DNA from: an uncultured Tenacibaculum sp.
GTDB taxonomy: Bacteria > Bacteroidota > Bacteroidia > Flavobacteriales > Flavobacteriaceae
Reading direction: 5' to 3'
DNA length: 64,000 nt
Assembly (NCBI RefSeq): GCF_947499065.1
Contig: NZ_CANMMT010000002.1
Span: 433,313-497,312, forward strand
Positions 7,404 to 23,088 of the stretch are shown in pieces. The notes beneath the pieces were generated by a model. The model made no database searches, was not told the DNA's origin, and saw only the letters and a list, made by a program, of their open reading frames with translations. How positions within the stretch are numbered: the stretch's first letter is position 1; the number at the start of each line of letters is the position of its first letter. Made by a program: the position numbers and the translations under genes.

Positions 7404-7907
7404 TTATAAGGTTCTGAAATATTCTAATACAGCTCTTGATTCTTTTTCAGTTAAATTCTGATTTGCCATTGGAGAACCATTGAACTTGATTAGTAATTCT
7501 TTAGCTATAGGATCTTTTTTTACCATTTCTTCTGGGTTTAAAATCATATTCATAACCCATTCTGGAGAACGTCTTTCTAAGATACCTGTAGGGTTTGGTC
7601 CTATAAATTTTCTATTTACTCTATGACATGATGAACACTTATTTTTAAATAATAGTTTACCTTCTTCAGCCATTGCTGTATTAATTGTAGGATCTAATTT
7701 TAAAGATTTAACAGGACCTATTCCTTTGTTGTTTAAATCAATTGTTCCGCTTTCAGTAGCTTTTTTTACTACTTTTTTAGCAGGCGTTTTTTTTACTGCT
7801 TCTTTAGATACTGTTGAAGAATTATAAGAAGGTCTTTTTTTATCATTACCACCACAGCTTATGAAAACTATGATTAGAAGCGTTGTTAGTAGGTTTTGTA
7901 ATTTCAT
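7404..7907 (-). CDS. Monohaem cytochrome c lipoprotein of the nos operon
   Basis: A 167-residue lipoprotein (lipobox VFISCGG, Cys18) with a Lys/Thr-rich spacer to about residue 70 and then a class I cytochrome c domain. The single haem motif is CSSCH in KNKCSSCHRV, and the axial Met is probably in GSPMANQNLT. It precedes nosZ by 19 bases in the same operon. A role as membrane-anchored electron donor to NosZ is the natural inference, as for cytochromes in other clade II nos clusters. Confidence 0.85.
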   Translation of the reverse strand: MKLQNLLTTLLIIVFISCGGNDKKRPSYNSSTVSKEAVKKTPAKKVVKKATESGTIDLNNKGIGPVKSLKLDPTINTAMAEEGKLLFKNKCSSCHRVNRKFIGPNPTGILERRSPEWVMNMILNPEEMVKKDPIAKELLIKFNGSPMANQNLTEKESRAVLEYFRTL

Positions 7908-15992: not shown

Positions 15993-16151
15993 TTATCCTG
16001 GAAGACATCTTCCTCTGTGACAAATAGCATAAGGATCGTTCCAAGCTACAGCACACTGCTTGTCTGTACTACAAGAAAGACTTCCTCCGTTAATAAATTT
16101 CTGTTCTTTTCTATTTAAAATAGAACCTAAGTTTGATACACTTTTAATCAT
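15993..16151 (-). CDS. Double-glycine leader peptide 1 (RiPP/bacteriocin-type precursor)
   Basis: A 52-residue peptide too short for routine ORF calling. Leader MIKSVSNLGSILNRKEQ ends with Gly22-Gly23, the usual cleavage point of C39-peptidase exporters. The core from residue 24 has four cysteines (27, 33, 44, 49) and polar residues. Two further genes at 22 kb share the leader pattern MxKxxSNLGxxLNxxEQ and the exact GG position. Such leaders are known in Flavobacteriia as putative natural-product precursors. No modifying enzyme or exporter lies in the window, so processing must occur elsewhere if it occurs. Function unknown. Confidence 0.8.
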   Translation of the reverse strand: MIKSVSNLGSILNRKEQKFINGGSLSCSTDKQCAVAWNDPYAICHRGRCLPG

Positions 16152-16173
16152 AGTAATAAATTTTTATTTGTTT

Positions 16174-16241
16174 CAAATTTAAATATTGAAAGAGAATAAA
16201 CTTTAAGAAAAACCATAAAATAAGTAAGGAATTACCTTGTA
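16174..16241 (-). promoter_or_regulatory. Promoter of peptide gene 1 with 22-bp-spaced direct repeats
   Basis: The -7 element on the minus strand is TAAATTTG (16181-16174). Two repeats, ACCATAA at 16212 and ACCTTGTAAT at 16234 (plus-strand reading), start 22 bp apart with AAGTAAGG between them. The first starts 31 bp from the -7 element. The same arrangement occurs at 19304-19371 and 22552-22620. Two-turn direct repeats are typical of LytTR-type regulators; that link is inference. Confidence 0.65.
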
Positions 16242-16314
16242 ATTTGTTATGAAATAGGTTTTTAATAAATATTTTGATTTGTTGGTCAAAAAAAAGAAGT
16301 GAATTGTGAATAAT

Positions 16315-16406
16315 AAAAAAGAAGAAGTTATCACCTCCAGACACTTCTTCTTTTAAAACTAACTAATCTATCAAATTGTAAAATGAAAAATCAAATTCTT
16401 AAATTA
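16315..16406 (-). ncRNA. Small RNA family, copy 1
   Basis: Transcribed on the minus strand from just below TATCTTTG (16419-16412) to a terminator with stem AAGAAGAAGT/ACTTCTTCTT and T run (16354-16315). Conserved with copies 2 and 3 are the segments AATTTAAGA, TTTTTCATTTTA and TTAGTTAGTT before the hairpin. The loop of this copy differs and holds GGAGGTGAT, complementary to the usual end of 16S rRNA. No open frame of note is conserved among the copies, so an RNA product is more likely than a peptide. Confidence 0.6.
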
Positions 16407-16411
16407 TATTT

Positions 16412-16478
16412 CAAAGATAGTTTAGAGGTATACTTGTTTTTTGAAAAATTAGATGAAGAGAAATAAAGTATCGATGAA
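16412..16478 (-). promoter_or_regulatory. Promoter and upstream repeats of sRNA copy 1
   Basis: The -7 element is TATCTTTG (16419-16412). Two TTCATC repeats (minus-strand reading) begin at 16478 and 16457, 21 bp apart, and the invariant block CGATACTTTA lies between them. The nearer repeat edge is 33 bp from the -7 element, as in copies 2 and 3. Confidence 0.55.
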
Positions 16479-16576
16479 TTACCTTGTTTTATAAGCTAAT
16501 TGAATTTTTGTTTATTAGAGATAAAATCAAGACGAAAGTCAACTGAAAAAAAGTTGGTTTTTTAATTTTTTAGTGT

Positions 16577-16660
16577 TATATTGTACTTATCTTATTGAGA
16601 CGTCAATAAGATTTCTTTTTCATAGCAATTTTCCCACTCAATTTTTTGAGTGGGTTTTTT
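16577..16660 (+). ncRNA. Candidate small RNA with two hairpins
   Basis: A possible promoter (TTG, 20 bp, TATATTGT at 16577-16584; one or two mismatches) precedes a predicted transcript from about 16590. It holds hairpin CTTATTGA-GACG-TCAATAAG (16591-16610) and a strong terminator CCCACTCA/TGAGTGGG plus seven Ts (16633-16660). The terminator points to the plus strand, so it cannot serve the lipoprotein gene, which also ends nearby but from the other side. That makes an independent plus-strand transcript plausible. Confidence 0.4.
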
Positions 16661-16676
16661 TATTTACTAGAATAAT

Positions 16677-18221
16677 TTACTTACAATTAGATTTAATACC
16701 TTTAAAGAACATTAATCTGTAGGCAGTTTCATGACCAATTTTTTGAGACATCCATTGCTTCCATTCATTAGAATTTTTATCAGTTGGTTCGCTACCTAAT
16801 ACACAATCACCAGTTAACATGGTATACATATATGCTCCTGTAGCTTTATCTAAGTTTCCATGCATATGCCAGTTATCACTATAAGCAGATTGTGAAGGAA
16901 TAGCTTCTTTAAGTTGAGCATATAAAGTACGAATTGGTATAGCACGAGCACTAGGTAATTCAGATTTTCTAACCATATATAATGCAGTGCCTAAATCAGT
17001 ACTATTATTTGTTTCGTTATAACGTTTATCTAAACCATAAAGCATTGATGTATTACCATGATTACCATTGTCTTGCATAGGGAAACCAAAAGAAAAATCA
17101 AATTTAGTTGGATCTATGTCATAACGTTTGTTTGGTTCAAAATTTGTGTTAGCTCTTCCGTAATTAAAATTAATAGGTGGTGTACCGTTTTTTTCAAGAC
17201 TTCTACTTGATTTATTTATCACCCATTTTAATCCATTTAAAATACCATTTTCAGAACTAGTCCCTGTATGATTATAATTTAGAATATTATCATTTATATC
17301 ACAATTCATAAAGGGAGATATAAAAGTAGGATTACCAGAATAATGCTCTTTATTCTTTTCTTCATTTTTGGTTTTTAAAACAATATCAGCAATACTATTG
17401 TCATATTCATAGTTAGAAGTACTAGCATTTTTATCAAGAATATGGGTATAGATAGCAGCTGCTGCTAAATAAGCTCCATTAGGAGTTGGGTGTTCTGTGG
17501 CTTTATCTTTTTTTGAACTTGGTAATTTTTTCCAAGACAATCCAGCAGGAATAGTTTCAATAGCTGAACCATCAGCTGTACGATAGGTATATTCTAAAAA
17601 ATGATTTATTGAAGCAGTTAAACCTTCATCTTTAGGCCACTGCATTAAAAGTAATGGTTTAGCACTACCTTCGGTAACTTTTTTAACGATTTTGTTTACA
17701 CCTAAAGCATAGTACCCTGGTAGTTTAGCAATAATATATGGGTCTGCAGAAATTATAACATAATCCCATTTTCTTGTATTGTTATTAGATAAGTATTTAA
17801 ATCTTTGTTCTTGATTTTCTGGCCAGTAATAGTATTGTAATAAAGAATGAGTATAATGATTTTCATTATATGTATTACCACTTTGCCCTAAACCATATGC
17901 AATAACTTTACTTTTATAAATATTTTCAAAAGCAACACTAACTTCTAAGTTATGAGAATTATCTTGTGCTAAGATTTTATTTAATTCATTAGCAACTTTA
18001 TCTGATAAAAAAGGAGCAATATTAGAATTTATAGATTTATTTGACCCAATAATTAAAATATTAAGTTCACCATCATTATTTATATCAAGCATAGAGTTTG
18101 AACTTAGAGAAGGATTGTCATCAGGTGGTATAGGAGATTTATCCGAACAGCTAATCAGAAAGAATATAGCTATAAAATAAACAAACTTCAAGGGATTGTG
18201 TGAAAAAGGGGATTTATTCAT
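16677..18221 (-). CDS. Large lipoprotein, SGNH-hydrolase-like N-terminal half, function unknown
   Basis: A 514-residue lipoprotein (lipobox FFLISCS). After a Pro/Ser-rich linker, residues 50-270 follow an SGNH/GDSL-like pattern: LNILIIGSNKS at the first block, an AYGLGQSGNTY block, DYVIISADPY, and HPTPNGAYLAAAAIY near the position of the catalytic Asp-His block. The C-terminal half (270-514) has no domain I recognise. The catalytic Ser is not obvious because the GDS motif reads GSN, so activity is uncertain. The gene stands alone, with sRNA-like elements on both sides. Confidence 0.6.
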   Translation of the reverse strand: MNKSPFSHNPLKFVYFIAIFFLISCSDKSPIPPDDNPSLSSNSMLDINNDGELNILIIGSNKSINSNIAPFLSDKVANELNKILAQDNSHNLEVSVAFENIYKSKVIAYGLGQSGNTYNENHYTHSLLQYYYWPENQEQRFKYLSNNNTRKWDYVIISADPYIIAKLPGYYALGVNKIVKKVTEGSAKPLLLMQWPKDEGLTASINHFLEYTYRTADGSAIETIPAGLSWKKLPSSKKDKATEHPTPNGAYLAAAAIYTHILDKNASTSNYEYDNSIADIVLKTKNEEKNKEHYSGNPTFISPFMNCDINDNILNYNHTGTSSENGILNGLKWVINKSSRSLEKNGTPPINFNYGRANTNFEPNKRYDIDPTKFDFSFGFPMQDNGNHGNTSMLYGLDKRYNETNNSTDLGTALYMVRKSELPSARAIPIRTLYAQLKEAIPSQSAYSDNWHMHGNLDKATGAYMYTMLTGDCVLGSEPTDKNSNEWKQWMSQKIGHETAYRLMFFKGIKSNCK

Positions 18222-18295
18222 AAGTTTTTAAATTTTGGACAAATTTAAAAGCTATTTTCAAATTTATGAATATGACAAAGTCCTTTTTTTAAGTA

Positions 18296-18634
18296 TTAAA
18301 TACCCGTAAAAATTAAAACAAGAGTTCTTATAATAAAAGTAAATACAAAAGTGTAATAAATATGTGTATTAAAAGATAAAAGAATGTTTTTTTTATCGTA
18401 ATACATTATGCGTACACCAGTAGAGATAAACATCAATAAAATTGAGAAATAAAATATAATATTATGAAAATATGTAGCTGTATTAATCAATAATATCGTA
18501 TAACCTATGGCAATTATAATACAAATTAAAATATCTAAAATATTACAAACTTTTCGACTAAAACTAGTTTTATTAACGTTTAGTTTTTCAGATTCATTTT
18601 TAGATAAATTGAGTAGGGGGAATAAATTAATCAT
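18296..18634 (-). CDS. Small membrane protein, unknown
   Basis: A 112-residue protein with three to four hydrophobic helices after a polar N-terminal 30 residues (SKNESEKLNVNKTSFSRK). No family recognised. It lies 34 bases downstream of the STAS-domain gene on the same strand, so the two may form a small operon and act together. ATG start at 18634. Confidence 0.6.
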   Translation of the reverse strand: MINLFPLLNLSKNESEKLNVNKTSFSRKVCNILDILICIIIAIGYTILLINTATYFHNIIFYFSILLMFISTGVRIMYYDKKNILLSFNTHIYYTFVFTFIIRTLVLIFTGI

Positions 18635-18668
18635 AGAGTAAAAATTTAACTCATGTAATAAATAGCTT

Positions 18669-18941
18669 TTAAGAAGCTGGATTTAAACGATTAAATATAT
18701 CTTTAGTACCATTTCCAGTAGTAGAAAATATTTTTTGATTTTTAACAGCTATAGCTCTTAATTTTTTGATAGCATTTAAGCCATCAGAGTCAATCTCTTT
18801 TATTTTATCTAAATTAATTACAGTCTTCTTATTTTTTGAAATATAGTGTTCAAAATAAGTAACAAAAGATTTAACAGTTGTACAGTTAATTTTACCTTTT
18901 AAATAAAAAATTCCTTTTTTTTCTGAGATTTGTAAAGCCAT
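18669..18941 (-). CDS. STAS-domain protein, anti-sigma-factor-antagonist-like
   Basis: A 90-residue single-domain protein with the STAS plan: an edge strand GIFYLKGKI, a helix, the strand KTVINLDKIKEI and the signature DSDGLNAIKKLRAIA, in which the Ser of DSxG is the usual phosphorylation site. Such proteins bind anti-sigma kinases or act as phospho-switches. No kinase or phosphatase partner is nearby. It sits upstream of the small membrane protein gene. Confidence 0.75.
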   Translation of the reverse strand: MALQISEKKGIFYLKGKINCTTVKSFVTYFEHYISKNKKTVINLDKIKEIDSDGLNAIKKLRAIAVKNQKIFSTTGNGTKDIFNRLNPAS

Positions 18942-19200
18942 GGATGTATTTTTTAGTGTTTGTATACGTAAATATCAGCTATAGATATCTAATAAGTTTA
19001 TTTCTTTCGGTAAAACGCAATTTACTTTCGATAAAAAGATGAAAAATAATAGATAAAATAAACTTAATTAATTGTTTTTATATTAGATAGTTAAAAGCTT
19101 TTTAACTAATTTATAATGTTTAAGATAAAGTTCAAATAGTTAATTACCTGATAAATGAAAAGGAAAAACACTGATTTGATAAAGAGGGATTTAGATTTAA

Positions 19201-19298
19201 TAAAAAAGCTCCCGGAGGAGCTAATAAAAAAGGGAATTAAACTGTATAAATCAAATCTAAAATCTTTATAAGATAATTTATTTAAATGAAAAATATGA
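19201..19298 (-). ncRNA. Candidate small RNA sharing the peptide-gene promoter type
   Basis: The transcript would run from about 19298 (below TATTTTTG at 19311-19304) to terminator AGCTCC-TCCG-GGAGCT plus T run (19222-19201). It has no ATG-started frame of note; the only frame over it uses a TTG start and reads through the terminator. It resembles the sRNA triplet in its AU-rich body and G/C-rich final hairpin, but is not an obvious copy. Confidence 0.5.
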
Positions 19299-19303
19299 GG
19301 GCG

Positions 19304-19371
19304 CAAAAATATATGTATGTAAACTATTTTTTTGAAAAAAAACCGTAAAAAAAGTAAGGAAAAACCGTAAT
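19304..19371 (-). promoter_or_regulatory. sRNA promoter with 22-bp-spaced direct repeats
   Basis: TATTTTTG (-7 element, 19311-19304) lies 31 bp from the first of two near-perfect repeats, ACCGTAA at 19342 and ACCGTAAT at 19364 (plus-strand reading). They are 22 bp apart, with AAGTAAGG between them. Of the four copies in the window this has the best-matched repeat pair. Confidence 0.65.
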
Positions 19372-19388
19372 ATTTAAAGAAGTAAAAA

Positions 19389-19592
19389 TTAAAAGCGAAA
19401 TAAGTTTAGAACGTAAATATTAAAATCTTTTAAAAAGAAAAGAAACACTATTATATAGATAATAAGAATAGCTATTCTATGATATTTTAAGTTCTTTTCA
19501 ACTCTAAATACTTTTACATAAAAATAAGCAATTATCCTAGGAGGAAAGTACATTAAAGAAAAAAAGATTATACAATAGAGAATAGCAAACAT
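19389..19592 (-). CDS. Small two-helix membrane protein, unknown
   Basis: A 67-residue protein with hydrophobic segments at about 4-25 and 42-58 and a basic middle (KVFRVEKNLKYHR). ATG start at 19592, about 50 bases after the end of sRNA copy 2 on the same strand. No family recognised. It could be a small membrane component of the accessory region or a chance AT-rich frame; length and composition leave doubt. Confidence 0.45.
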   Translation of the reverse strand: MFAILYCIIFFSLMYFPPRIIAYFYVKVFRVEKNLKYHRIAILIIYIIVFLFFLKDFNIYVLNLFRF

Positions 19593-19642
19593 ATGATTAA
19601 CAATTTTTTACCTCAAAAATAATAAAAATATTACAATACAAT

Positions 19643-19718
19643 AAAAAAGAAGCGTCCCCCCGGATAACTTCTTTTTTAACTAACTAAACTATAAAATGAA
19701 AAACAAAATCTTAATTTA
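19643..19718 (-). ncRNA. Small RNA family, copy 2
   Basis: About 76 nt from below TATCTTTG (19731-19724) to the terminator hairpin AAGAAG/CTTCTT with inner TCC-GGGG-GGA stem and T run (19677-19643). Nearly identical to copy 3 across promoter, body and hairpin; copy 1 is more diverged. The body has only a short frame on the opposite strand. Confidence 0.65.
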
Positions 19719-19723
19719 TACTT

Positions 19724-19790
19724 CAAAGATAGAGTAGAGGTTGGGGTGAATTTTACTTTTTTAGATAAAAAGAATTAAAGTATCGTTGAA
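19724..19790 (-). promoter_or_regulatory. Promoter and upstream repeats of sRNA copy 2
   Basis: -7 element TATCTTTG (19731-19724). Upstream, TTCAAC (from 19790) and TTTATC (from 19769) are 21 bp apart with the invariant CGATACTTTA block. The proximal edge is 33 bp from the -7 element, the same as in copies 1 and 3. Confidence 0.55.
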
Positions 19791-19914
19791 TAGTATTTTT
19801 TCACAAGTAAAAAGGAAATAATATAATTTAAGGAAAGAAAAAGTTAATTAAGGTATTAGTTGAGAATAATAAACTGTCTATTTTAGCTGAAAAATAAAAA
19901 AGAGATTAATATTC

Positions 19915-20535
19915 ATGGGAATTTTATCATTCTTTGGTTTGGGATCAAAAGGTCTATTACCAAAAGAAACAGAATTAGTTAATAAGCTAGATTTTAATGT
20001 CGAGCTAATGAAAGAGTTAAAAAATGAAGTAAAAAGTGAGTTAATTCAGTTACCATCAATTGACGAAGAAACTGCAGATATTATAGACGGACTTTATAAT
20101 GGAATTTTCACAAGTACTTCAGAAGATAGAGTAAATTCTATTGTCAAAAAATTTAAGGAAGTATTTAGAGCAAAAGGTTATTTGATATTTGCTTTTACAG
20201 GTGAAGATGATATTAAAAGTATTGGGGTCATAAAAGGAACTGATGATCTTGATATTTTAAAATATAGAAGAACGAACGGAATAAATCACGATTATGAAAA
20301 TGAAGATATAATTGCAAAAATATCAGAATGGAATGAAAGATATGGATTAATAGTAATTGGTTGCGGACAAGATTGGGTTGAATTAGAGTTCAAAAAATTA
20401 CCTTCTGATTTAAGTATTTTTTCAGAAGAAGTTTATGAATTTTGTCCAGATTCTGTTGATCAAGGAGTTGGAGAAGTAGAAAATTTGAAAGAGTTAATAA
20501 AAGAAATGAATGGAATATGGTTGTGGTGGGATTAA
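19915..20535 (+). CDS. DUF4253-like protein, unknown function
   Basis: A 206-residue soluble protein. The C-terminus (residues 175-206: EFCPDSVDQGVGEVENLKEL ... WLWWD) matches the DUF4253 signature of a CPD-x3-QG motif and a closing WWD. Residues 60-130 form a mixed alpha/beta segment with GYLIFAFTGEDD and IGVIKGTDD, also usual for the family. DUF4253 proteins are sometimes found near polymorphic toxins as possible immunity or housekeeping proteins; no toxin is seen here. The gene is bracketed by direct copies 2 and 3 of the sRNA. Confidence 0.7.
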   Translation: MGILSFFGLGSKGLLPKETELVNKLDFNVELMKELKNEVKSELIQLPSIDEETADIIDGLYNGIFTSTSEDRVNSIVKKFKEVFRAKGYLIFAFTGEDDIKSIGVIKGTDDLDILKYRRTNGINHDYENEDIIAKISEWNERYGLIVIGCGQDWVELEFKKLPSDLSIFSEEVYEFCPDSVDQGVGEVENLKELIKEMNGIWLWWD

Positions 20536-20553
20536 AAAATATAGTAATAAAAT

Positions 20554-20631
20554 AAAAAAAGAAGCGTCCCCCCGGATAACTTCTTTTTTAACTAATTAAA
20601 CTATAAAATGAAAAAACAAAATCTTAATTTA
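20554..20631 (-). ncRNA. Small RNA family, copy 3
   Basis: About 78 nt from below TATCTTTG (20644-20637) to the same AAGAAG/CTTCTT hairpin with TCC-GGGG-GGA core and T run (20589-20554). It differs from copy 2 by only a few bases. It faces the end of the DUF4253-like gene, so it could also serve as that gene's terminator on the plus strand. Confidence 0.65.
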
Positions 20632-20636
20632 TACTT

Positions 20637-20703
20637 CAAAGATAGAGTAGGGGTTGAGTTGAATTTTGCCTTTTTAGATTAAGCGAGATAAAGTATCGTT
20701 GAA
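20637..20703 (-). promoter_or_regulatory. Promoter and upstream repeats of sRNA copy 3
   Basis: -7 element TATCTTTG (20644-20637). TTCAAC (from 20703) and TTAATC (from 20682) are 21 bp apart on the minus strand, with CGATACTTTA between them. The spacing to the -7 element is 33 bp, as in the other copies. Confidence 0.55.
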
Positions 20704-20775: not shown

Positions 20776-20820
20776 AAAAAATCTGTATACCATTATTTAT
20801 AAATGATATACAGATTTTTT
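20776..20820. terminator. Bidirectional hairpin beside the tRNA fragment
   Basis: AAAAATCTGTAT pairs with ATACAGATTTTT across an AT-rich loop, with A and T runs on both sides. It directly abuts the duplicated tRNA-Leu end. Confidence 0.55.
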
Positions 20821-20876
20821 TCTGTGCACATAGCGGGAGTCGAACCCGCACGTCCTTACGAACACTAGCCCCTCAA
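20819..20876 (-). pseudogene. Duplicated 3' end of tRNA-Leu(GAG), probable att site
   Basis: 58 bp here match 22999-23056, the 3' part of the intact tRNA-Leu, with a single internal mismatch (T for A at 20866). The match covers the acceptor 3' strand, T arm, variable arm and part of the anticodon stem-loop, then stops abruptly. A truncated tRNA cannot function. Such duplicates mark the far end of elements integrated at a tRNA 3' end. Confidence 0.85.
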
Positions 20877-22932: not shown

Positions 22933-23004
22933 CTAGGAGTGAAGTATAAAAAAACACTTATAAATATGTTTATAAGTGTTTGATAATTAAGGTTTTATTT
23001 TCTG

Positions 23005-23088
23005 TGCACATAGCGGGAGTCGAACCCGCACGTCCTTACGAACACAAGCCCCTCAAGCCTGCGCGTCTACCAATTCCGCCATACGTGC
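23005..23088 (-). tRNA. tRNA-Leu(GAG)
   Basis: Class II tRNA of 84 nt. Acceptor GCACGTA pairs with TATGTGC, and the anticodon loop is TTGAGGG (anticodon GAG). The long variable arm TTCGTAAGGAC precedes the T arm GCGGGTTCGACTCCCGC. The CCA end is not encoded. Its 3' part is duplicated at 20819-20876. Confidence 0.95.

Follow-up and report, generated by a model that had tools for sequence, protein, structure and literature searches.

Three minus-strand units in the window (the whole 64,000-nucleotide stretch of Tenacibaculum DNA analysed here) are part of a 16-copy family in their own genome. The copies share a recurring promoter geometry and a terminator-like hairpin whose loop is G-rich in most of them, but no conserved reading frame. 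We predict that each encodes a small RNA, in most cases of about 70-100 nt. From the sequence we infer that the units are transcribed and that a LytTR-type response regulator activates them, in which case it would switch on each copy at two direct repeats 21 bp apart. On balance, we favor a set of sibling sRNAs under LytTR control, which would pair with translation starts and work like the FopS RNAs of Bacteroides and the streptococcal csRNAs.

A preliminary description of this DNA had reported three related units on the minus strand, and we found them there, coordinates included (Table 1). Their similarity is far above chance, with unit 3 matching unit 2 at E 1.1e-61 and unit 1 at E 1.7e-20 in a whole-genome search. 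The sequences TATCTTTG, TTTTTCATTTTA and CGATACTTTA are common to all three, as had been described, but TTAGTTAGTT, also thought to be shared, occurs only in units 1 and 2 and gives way to TTAATTAGTT in unit 3. Likewise, the shared hairpin is present in every unit, but its loop region is CCGGGGGGA in units 2 and 3 and CTGGAGGTGAT in unit 1. The upstream repeats have the described 21-bp period throughout, although their cores, TTCATC/TTCATC in unit 1, are degenerate in unit 2 (TTCAAC/TTTATC) and unit 3 (TTCAAC/TTAATC). A spacing of 33 bp from the -7 box could not be reproduced: the distance to the box is 59 bp from the start of repeat 1, 38 bp from the start of repeat 2 and 44 bp from the end of CGATACTTTA. 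At best, 33 bp corresponds to where the second TTCATC ends, 32 bp from the box. The predicted +1 was set 12 nt past the first base of the -7 box, based on the -12 to -5 position of the sigma-A box in Flavobacterium psychrophilum given in excerpts of PMC9723704.

Table 1. Features of the three units and of the peptide gene downstream of unit 1, in window coordinates
Feature	Position	Strand	Basis
Unit 1 predicted sRNA, about 94 nt, predicted +1 at 16407	16314..16407	-	
Unit 1 terminator hairpin, loop region CTGGAGGTGAT, then T tract	16317..16354	-	
Unit 1 -7 box TATCTTTG	16412..16419	-	
Unit 1 direct repeats TTCATCGATAC / TTCATCTAAT, 21 bp apart, LytTR-like site	16448..16478	-	sequence likeness
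Unit 2 predicted sRNA, about 80 nt	19640..19719	-	
Unit 2 terminator hairpin, loop region CCGGGGGGA	19643..19677	-	
Unit 2 -7 box TATCTTTG	19724..19731	-	
Unit 2 direct repeats TTCAACGATAC / TTTATCTAAA, 21 bp apart	19760..19790	-	
Unit 3 predicted sRNA, about 81 nt	20552..20632	-	
Unit 3 terminator hairpin, loop region CCGGGGGGA	20555..20589	-	
Unit 3 -7 box TATCTTTG	20637..20644	-	
Unit 3 direct repeats TTCAACGATAC / TTAATCTAAA, 21 bp apart	20673..20703	-	
Double-glycine-leader peptide gene (MIKSVSNLGSILNRKEQKFINGG...), starts 165 nt downstream of unit 1, own repeat-type upstream region	15993..16151	-	

Calling the units triplicated was an understatement. A search of their own genome returned 14 copies at E<=0.01 and two weaker ones. 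The wider model search that had been suggested places the family in 13 of 116 genomes of the genus, the own genome counted, with no matches in the sampled genomes outside it; among those sampled, the family thus occurs only in some genomes of one genus. Because all seven named matches are Tenacibaculum, we take this to be the host genus. One of the outside-genus searches scored only 10 candidates per genome and recovered 10 of the 14 own copies, so weak members elsewhere may be missed. The 40-genome searches used stricter filters, and the alignment behind search model R1 was imperfect and had only 8 pairs. The preliminary description did not recognize how many copies there are, that the repeats are LytTR-like, or that the family is linked with double-glycine-leader peptide genes.

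For comparison across genomes we hand-listed 70 matches, including L053 6784 and L084 4440; matches that duplicated one another by overlap were dropped, as were three weak ones, of which two are in L057 and one is in L211. Leaving out L168 1501 as well, which has no recognizable box, gave 69 distinct copies from several species. The same layout recurs across them: two direct repeats, the -7 box, an AU-rich body and a terminator-like hairpin. The idea that promoter geometry and RNA are conserved but protein is not therefore holds well beyond the window, since this layout recurs and no frame does. An ATG-started frame is absent from 49 of the 69 predicted RNAs, and the longest is 15 residues and unclosed. 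We also considered a peptide on the plus strand, where MKNQILKLYF-like starts are seen, but rejected it because unit 2 is frame-shifted relative to unit 3; in the first 20 copies such starts differ or are absent. As had been supposed, the units lie outside known RNA families: the region has no Rfam match at the gathering score, and only RefA9 (E 2.3, plus strand) among eight sub-threshold matches at E<=5 overlaps a unit.

Across the 69 copies, the promoter is marked by two TTCATCTA-like direct repeats 21 bp apart and a -7 box with the consensus TATMTTTR, and repeat 1 lies 59 bp from the box in 55 copies. The mean TTCATCTA score is 5.72 of 8 at -38 and 5.43 of 8 at -59 before the box, against a background of 2.67 (sd 0.45). 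A score of at least 6 of 8 is reached at -38 in 59 copies and at -59 in 52, compared with 2 of 69 at one control place. Repeat 1 is outside model R1, which was used to find the copies, but the repeat score helped pick among candidate boxes, so this check is only partly independent. Passages of PMC4064291 describe LytTR sites as direct repeats separated by about 12 bp and give the AlgR core as CCGTTCGTC, but state that AlgR sites themselves need not be spaced as direct repeats; LytTR repeats are placed upstream of the -35 element in an excerpt of PMC6193735. The family has the geometry of a LytTR promoter, for which a period of 21-22 bp is expected: two direct repeats 21 bp apart precede the core promoter. 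Compared with the AlgR core, the 9-mers at these two places score 4.78 and 4.52 of 9 (background 2.0). Thus, the repeats resemble LytTR regulator sites in both sequence and spacing, and a LytTR-type regulator probably switches on the sRNA units. A LytTR gene driven by its own promoter of this type was rejected as a candidate, as model R2 gave a single weak match (E 0.26) over 30 of the 42 LytTR loci. The same promoter also stands ahead of protein genes, such as a FIST-kinase operon, which makes the motif an entry to a wider regulon.

Direct half-sites spaced by about 21 bp can also be bound by AraC-type activators, and an AraC-like gene, named from a reading of its sequence, adjoins the site at C2:510305. 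An AraC-type or other direct-repeat activator could therefore bind the repeats in place of a LytTR protein, with the rest of the model kept. We consider this unlikely, as the half-site CCATTCATC resembles the AlgR core and the own genome encodes 42 LytTR domains.

Downstream of the promoter, TTTCATT occurs in 36 of 69 bodies compared with 26 of 269 flank windows, and TTAGTTA-like sequences in 43 compared with 11. Folds of 10 and of 69 copies give, in multiple paralogues, an unpaired 5' stretch followed by a single terminator hairpin; in the 10-copy fold, weak A-U stems appear in some bodies. The terminator-like hairpin carries GGGG in 48 of the 69 copies, and CCGGGGGG recurs in 24 although the stem letters vary; we would guess that the G-rich loop serves either for a second pairing or as a handle for a protein. 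This loop conservation could also mean that the RNAs do not act by start-codon pairing and that the G-rich loop instead binds a protein or the anti-Shine-Dalgarno end of 16S rRNA. Three of the 69 hairpins (at 16317 in the window, L208 6621 and L046 19441) contain GGAGGTGA, complementary to the 16S tail. However, GGGG is missing from 21 hairpins and the body beyond the hairpin is conserved as well. As for a protein partner, the RRM-1 domain of the RbpB type known for FopS (PF00076) has no match in the own genome, whereas the control, Bacteroides ihuae, was positive. Binding through the loop alone is accordingly a rather improbable account.

If the units instead act by start-codon pairing, as we favor, the AU-rich 5' body would base-pair around the translation start of its target messages. 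An anti-start-codon seed that represses translation would be made up of UUUUUCAUUUUUA (complement of UAAAAAUG) and UUAGUUAGUU (complement of AACUAACUAA), and different copies would serve different messages, some for exported proteins and peptides. The first targets predicted are a serine carboxypeptidase gene in L081, a cytochrome c gene at 7404-7907 of the window and, for the L054 copy, the double-glycine peptides. Evidence for this prediction is weak and mixed. When eight own bodies were tested on 481 predicted start regions, no more than 3 of 50 shuffles reached the real mean energy for five of them, and the other three were no better than shuffles (window 16317, 17/50; window 19641, 10/50; L046 4986, 35/50). 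TAACTAAC-N4-30-ATGAAA coincides with a predicted start at 6 of 8 non-self sites, compared with 110 of 550 for permuted octamers, a post-hoc comparison made after the 6/8 observation. TAACTAAC-N-ATGAAA shows no genome-wide excess, with 10 sites (two of them antisense to sRNAs) compared with 12 for a reversed control.

One lineage, L054/L212, appears antisense to a peptide-gene start, its pairing being reached by 6 (L054) and 5 (L212) of 2000 shuffles; with 16 own copies tested, we estimate the L054 value at about 0.05. In a 60-shuffle test, one shuffle reached L054 and two reached L212, and 19 other bodies were unremarkable. L209 (2/120 shuffles) and L172 (1/120) also stand out when all 69 copies are paired with peptide starts. 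Three of 15 own bodies favor 12 peptide starts over 481 others (L054, p<0.001; L050, p 0.015; L046 4986, p 0.034), and five lean the opposite way (p>0.9). The idea that every copy pairs with double-glycine peptide starts is not supported, given these mixed p values and a mean z of 0.06 over the 69 copies.

The peptide genes are linked to the family by position. For six of the 16 own copies, a double-glycine-leader peptide gene follows on the same strand after 106-401 nt, and a 400-kb control stretch contains no such gene. Among all 69 copies, 4 of which have less than 760 nt of DNA downstream, a peptide gene follows within 450 nt in 15 cases and within 700 nt in 17, some of these being orthologous pairs. 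The units might accordingly belong to the peptide genes as 5' leaders or attenuators whose hairpin controls read-through, but for the remaining ten own copies the 450 nt downstream contain no such gene. Furthermore, most of the listed peptide genes have upstream repeats of their own (TAAGGT..ACCTTAC..TTACGGTTTTT or variants) and a -7-like box near the ATG. Some copies also stand in tandem in intergenic space, as in L062, where no same-strand ORF of at least 35 codons separates the three copies. We therefore give the leader interpretation little credence. Returning to sibling sRNAs, a fuller circuit can be drawn in which a LytTR regulator would drive many-copy start-codon antisense RNAs against secreted proteins and peptides, the adjoining double-glycine peptides being partners or signals; we offer it tentatively and hold it to be doubtful as a whole. 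Titles and abstracts of the literature searched offered no precedent for a peptide-plus-sibling-sRNA cassette in Bacteroidota.

A dispersed mobile repeat (MITE- or REP-like), conserved through copying and not function, would suit the high copy number, the clusters and the patchy species range, but it is very improbable, as copies from different species have diverged in spacer and stem yet keep the repeat phase, -7 box and hairpin, the same promoter precedes protein genes, and no transposase family was found among 10 neighboring proteins scanned. The 4.4 kb of the region also has no phage- or plasmid-collection match (BLAST, low-complexity filter on), so the known transposon end that the preliminary description had raised as a counter-explanation is not indicated. 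Both a known RNA family and a mobile element were rejected as far as tested against Rfam and these collections.

To our knowledge, few flavobacterial small RNAs have a known regulator or target. For the present family, sequence yields a promoter code, a copy set and candidate targets, so that two questions become testable in a genus that includes fish pathogens: which of the 42 LytTR domains would be at work, and what role a 16-copy sibling set has. Multicopy sRNAs near double-glycine-leader peptide genes also recall streptococcal competence control, in an unrelated phylum.

Several known systems share parts of this arrangement. In the Firmicutes, AgrA-RNAIII and the VirR-regulated RNAs have a LytTR regulator driving a regulatory RNA, as would be the case here, but they are not known to be many-copy families. 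Rfp18 of F. psychrophilum is, like the present family, a flavobacterial sRNA conserved across species; excerpts of PMC9723704 describe a strong structure with a third stem-loop, and by that description, not by sequence, it is set apart from a family with one main hairpin. The streptococcal csRNAs under CiaRH are sibling sRNAs of 87-151 nt with direct repeats, whose sequence can pair with start codons and whose target comC encodes a secreted peptide precursor (passages of PMC4507080 and PMC8186281). They resemble the Tenacibaculum family in being siblings and in the use of direct repeats by a response regulator (predicted here); the start-codon complementarity predicted for the Tenacibaculum RNAs has weak and uneven support. 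In contrast, the CiaR repeat is TTTAAG-N5-TTTAAG and not TTCATCTA with a 21-bp period, and peptide genes adjoin some of the sRNAs in Tenacibaculum; sequence kinship was compared via Rfam only. FopS of Bacteroides thetaiotaomicron comprises 14 paralogous sRNAs that pair with translation-start regions, have canonical sigma-ABfr promoters and are bound by the RRM protein RbpB, their structure being deposited in Rfam (according to parts of PMC11697453). The Tenacibaculum family differs in its LytTR-like repeats and in having no Rfam match, a comparison in which the FopS accession was not confirmed in the searched library. Nevertheless, both have many paralogues per Bacteroidota genome, an unpaired 5' stretch and one terminator hairpin, and the translation-start pairing shown for FopS is what we propose for the Tenacibaculum RNAs.

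The three window units follow one minus-strand order: an element resembling TTCATCGATACTTTA, one resembling TTCATCTAAT 21 bp further, 28 bp, TATCTTTG and an A/T-rich start region. The AU-rich stretch carries TTTTTCATTTTA with TTAGTTAGTT (in unit 3, TTAATTAGTT), and the 3' end is a hairpin around AAGAAG / CTTCTT followed by a T tract; for the loop region, units 2 and 3 read CCGGGGGGA, unit 1 CTGGAGGTGAT. The preliminary description of these units as a triplicated small RNA with upstream repeats was correct overall; its distance of 33 bp between repeats and -7 box was wrong, and unit 3 reads TTAATTAGTT in place of TTAGTTAGTT. Beside unit 3 lies a 62-nt piece with 97% identity to the end of tRNA-Leu(GAG), which looks like an integration scar.

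The units belong to a larger family. Scoring 40 of 208 first-look candidates from a DNA search yielded at least 10 genomic copies; a covariance model raised this to 14 (E<=0.01), to which promoter and hairpin convincingly add two weaker ones. Of these 16 own copies, spread over four contigs, 15 lie on the minus strand. Copies also form clusters and tandems, as at loci L055 and L062, and a STAS-domain protein (Pfam) and its look-alike adjoin sRNA clusters in two species. Among 59 genomes, four matched, every one in the same genus, and the 23 from other genera gave no match; 13 of 116 genomes matched in a genus-wide search (our own included), and 1 of 299 in a search of the taxonomic family under strict filters (236 genera), again our own. 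A pattern scan of named genomes recovered seven stretches; they come from two uncultured Tenacibaculum isolates, T. aiptasiae and T. ovolyticum, four genomes altogether. Because match scores are identical between loci of genus members and named Tenacibaculum loci (L162 and L214; L163 and L210), we take the matched genus to be Tenacibaculum.

Across 69 distinct copies, the predicted RNA spans 45 to 102 nt between +1 and the last position matched by the model, and no conserved reading frame was found among them. The final 62 nt fold computationally as a hairpin in 69/69, at -12.5 kcal/mol or better in 68, and GGGG occurs in 48. The body contains TTTCATT in 36/69 copies, compared with 26/269 flank windows, and a TTAGTTA-like block in 43/69, compared with 11/269.

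In the promoter, repeat 1 lies 59 bp from the -7 box in 55 of 69 copies, box and spacing having been chosen by score among candidates, and the mean match to TTCATCTA peaks at -38 (5.72/8) and -59 (5.43/8) over a background of 2.67. A weaker third peak, in phase at -80, reaches at least 6/8 in 22/69 copies versus 2/69 at a control place; it is absent from all three window units. The -7 box agrees with TAnnTTTG, given for the main flavobacterial sigma factor in part of PMC9723704, and a TTG at -33 shows no conservation across 35 copies. A pair of direct repeats separated by about 12 bp, directly upstream of the core promoter, typifies LytTR regulators according to portions of PMC4064291 and PMC6193735, and AlgR sites need not keep direct-repeat spacing (PMC4064291, in part). 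CCATTCATC is similar to CCGTTCGTC of AlgR. Our genome encodes 42 LytTR domains in 4.0 Mb, an unusually large set. Some protein genes also carry the same promoter upstream, their ATG lying about 88-97 nt past repeat 1: a perfect copy precedes an operon of a FIST-domain protein and a histidine kinase, a candidate sensor for the regulon, and a few further genes carry weaker versions.

This promoter is also followed by another conserved RNA or leader (GAAACATAAAGTAAATCTCGCCGAACAGATAGAGGTCCC and variants), seen as three tandem copies in our genome and singly in each of two other species. No sub-threshold Rfam match in those loci spans it; one of them, to the Bacteroides sRNA BTnc231, has E 1.3e-4 and 38.1 bits, short of the 80.4-bit cut-off. 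Another genome, G012, has near-identical tandem units in which the same promoter is joined to another RNA body.

Coordinates of features in the window and in loci (L) or contigs (C) of our own and related genomes
Feature	Location	Strand
Predicted sRNA unit 1	window 16315-16478	-
Predicted sRNA unit 2	window 19643-19790	-
Predicted sRNA unit 3	window 20554-20703	-
Weaker own copies	C2:150667; C4:23422	
tRNA-Leu(GAG)-like piece	window 20815-20876	-
tRNA-Leu(GAG) end	window 22995-23056	
STAS-domain protein	window 18669-18941	-
STAS look-alike	L055 9880-10158	+
Peptide-gene upstream repeats, TAAGGT..ACCTTAC..TTACGGTTTTT (example)	window 16152-16260	-
Cytochrome c gene	window 7404-7907	
FIST-domain protein and histidine kinase operon	L081 4587-6842	-
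GAAACATAAAGTAAATCTCGCCGAACAGATAGAGGTCCC RNA or leader	L144 3622-4495	-
GAAACATAAAGTAAATCTCGCCGAACAGATAGAGGTCCC RNA or leader	L152 2326	+
GAAACATAAAGTAAATCTCGCCGAACAGATAGAGGTCCC RNA or leader	L154 2197	+
BTnc231 sub-threshold match	L152 1949-2031	+
G012 tandem units	L148 2601-3366	-
G012 tandem units	L151 2277-2858	-

Six of the 16 own copies have a double-glycine-leader peptide gene (type MLKNISNLG...EQ..INGG) 106-401 nt downstream on the same strand. In the whole set such a gene occurs within 450 nt of 15/69 copies and within 700 nt of 17/69, some being orthologous pairs. The opening 400 kb of contig C1, taken for another purpose before the peptide count and likewise free of family copies, contains none. 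Since most of these peptide genes have their own upstream direct repeats, of ~22-bp period and distinct from those of the sRNA, sRNA and peptide gene appear to be transcribed separately, each under its own repeat-type control.

Body complements of TAAAAATG and AACTAACTAA suggest an anti-start-codon seed. Against 481 predicted start regions, the mean pairing of five of eight own bodies is reached by only 0-3 of 50 dinucleotide shuffles, and three pair no better than shuffles (10, 17 and 35 of 50). Among single predictions, a cytochrome c gene (-31.4 kcal/mol) and the L081 serine carboxypeptidase gene (-29.9) come out best. Genome-wide, the two-block pattern is not enriched (10 sites versus 12 for the control); its non-self sites fall at predicted starts in 6/8 cases versus 110/550 for permuted octamers, a post hoc comparison. 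In one lineage, copy L054 and the corresponding T. aiptasiae copy L212 are antisense to the first peptide-gene codons (6 and 5 of 2000 shuffles); such pairing with peptide-gene starts is not supported family-wide (mean z 0.06). The pairing tests are thus mixed, and we favour with moderate confidence the reading that the family comprises sibling antisense sRNAs under LytTR control, in which pairing would be the weakest step.

No such Tenacibaculum family appeared among the matches listed by a literature search covering neither subscription papers nor preprints, and the available part of one review (PMC9029176) names the genus once, as a list entry. The tested defining features (Rfam match, promoter and RRM-1 partner) argue against membership in known families, FopS and csRNAs. 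The proposed family would operate in like manner to streptococcal csRNAs and FopS, judging from portions of PMC4507080, PMC8186281 and PMC11697453; in the last, FopS of Bacteroides has 14 paralogues, the same RNA layout and start-region repression.
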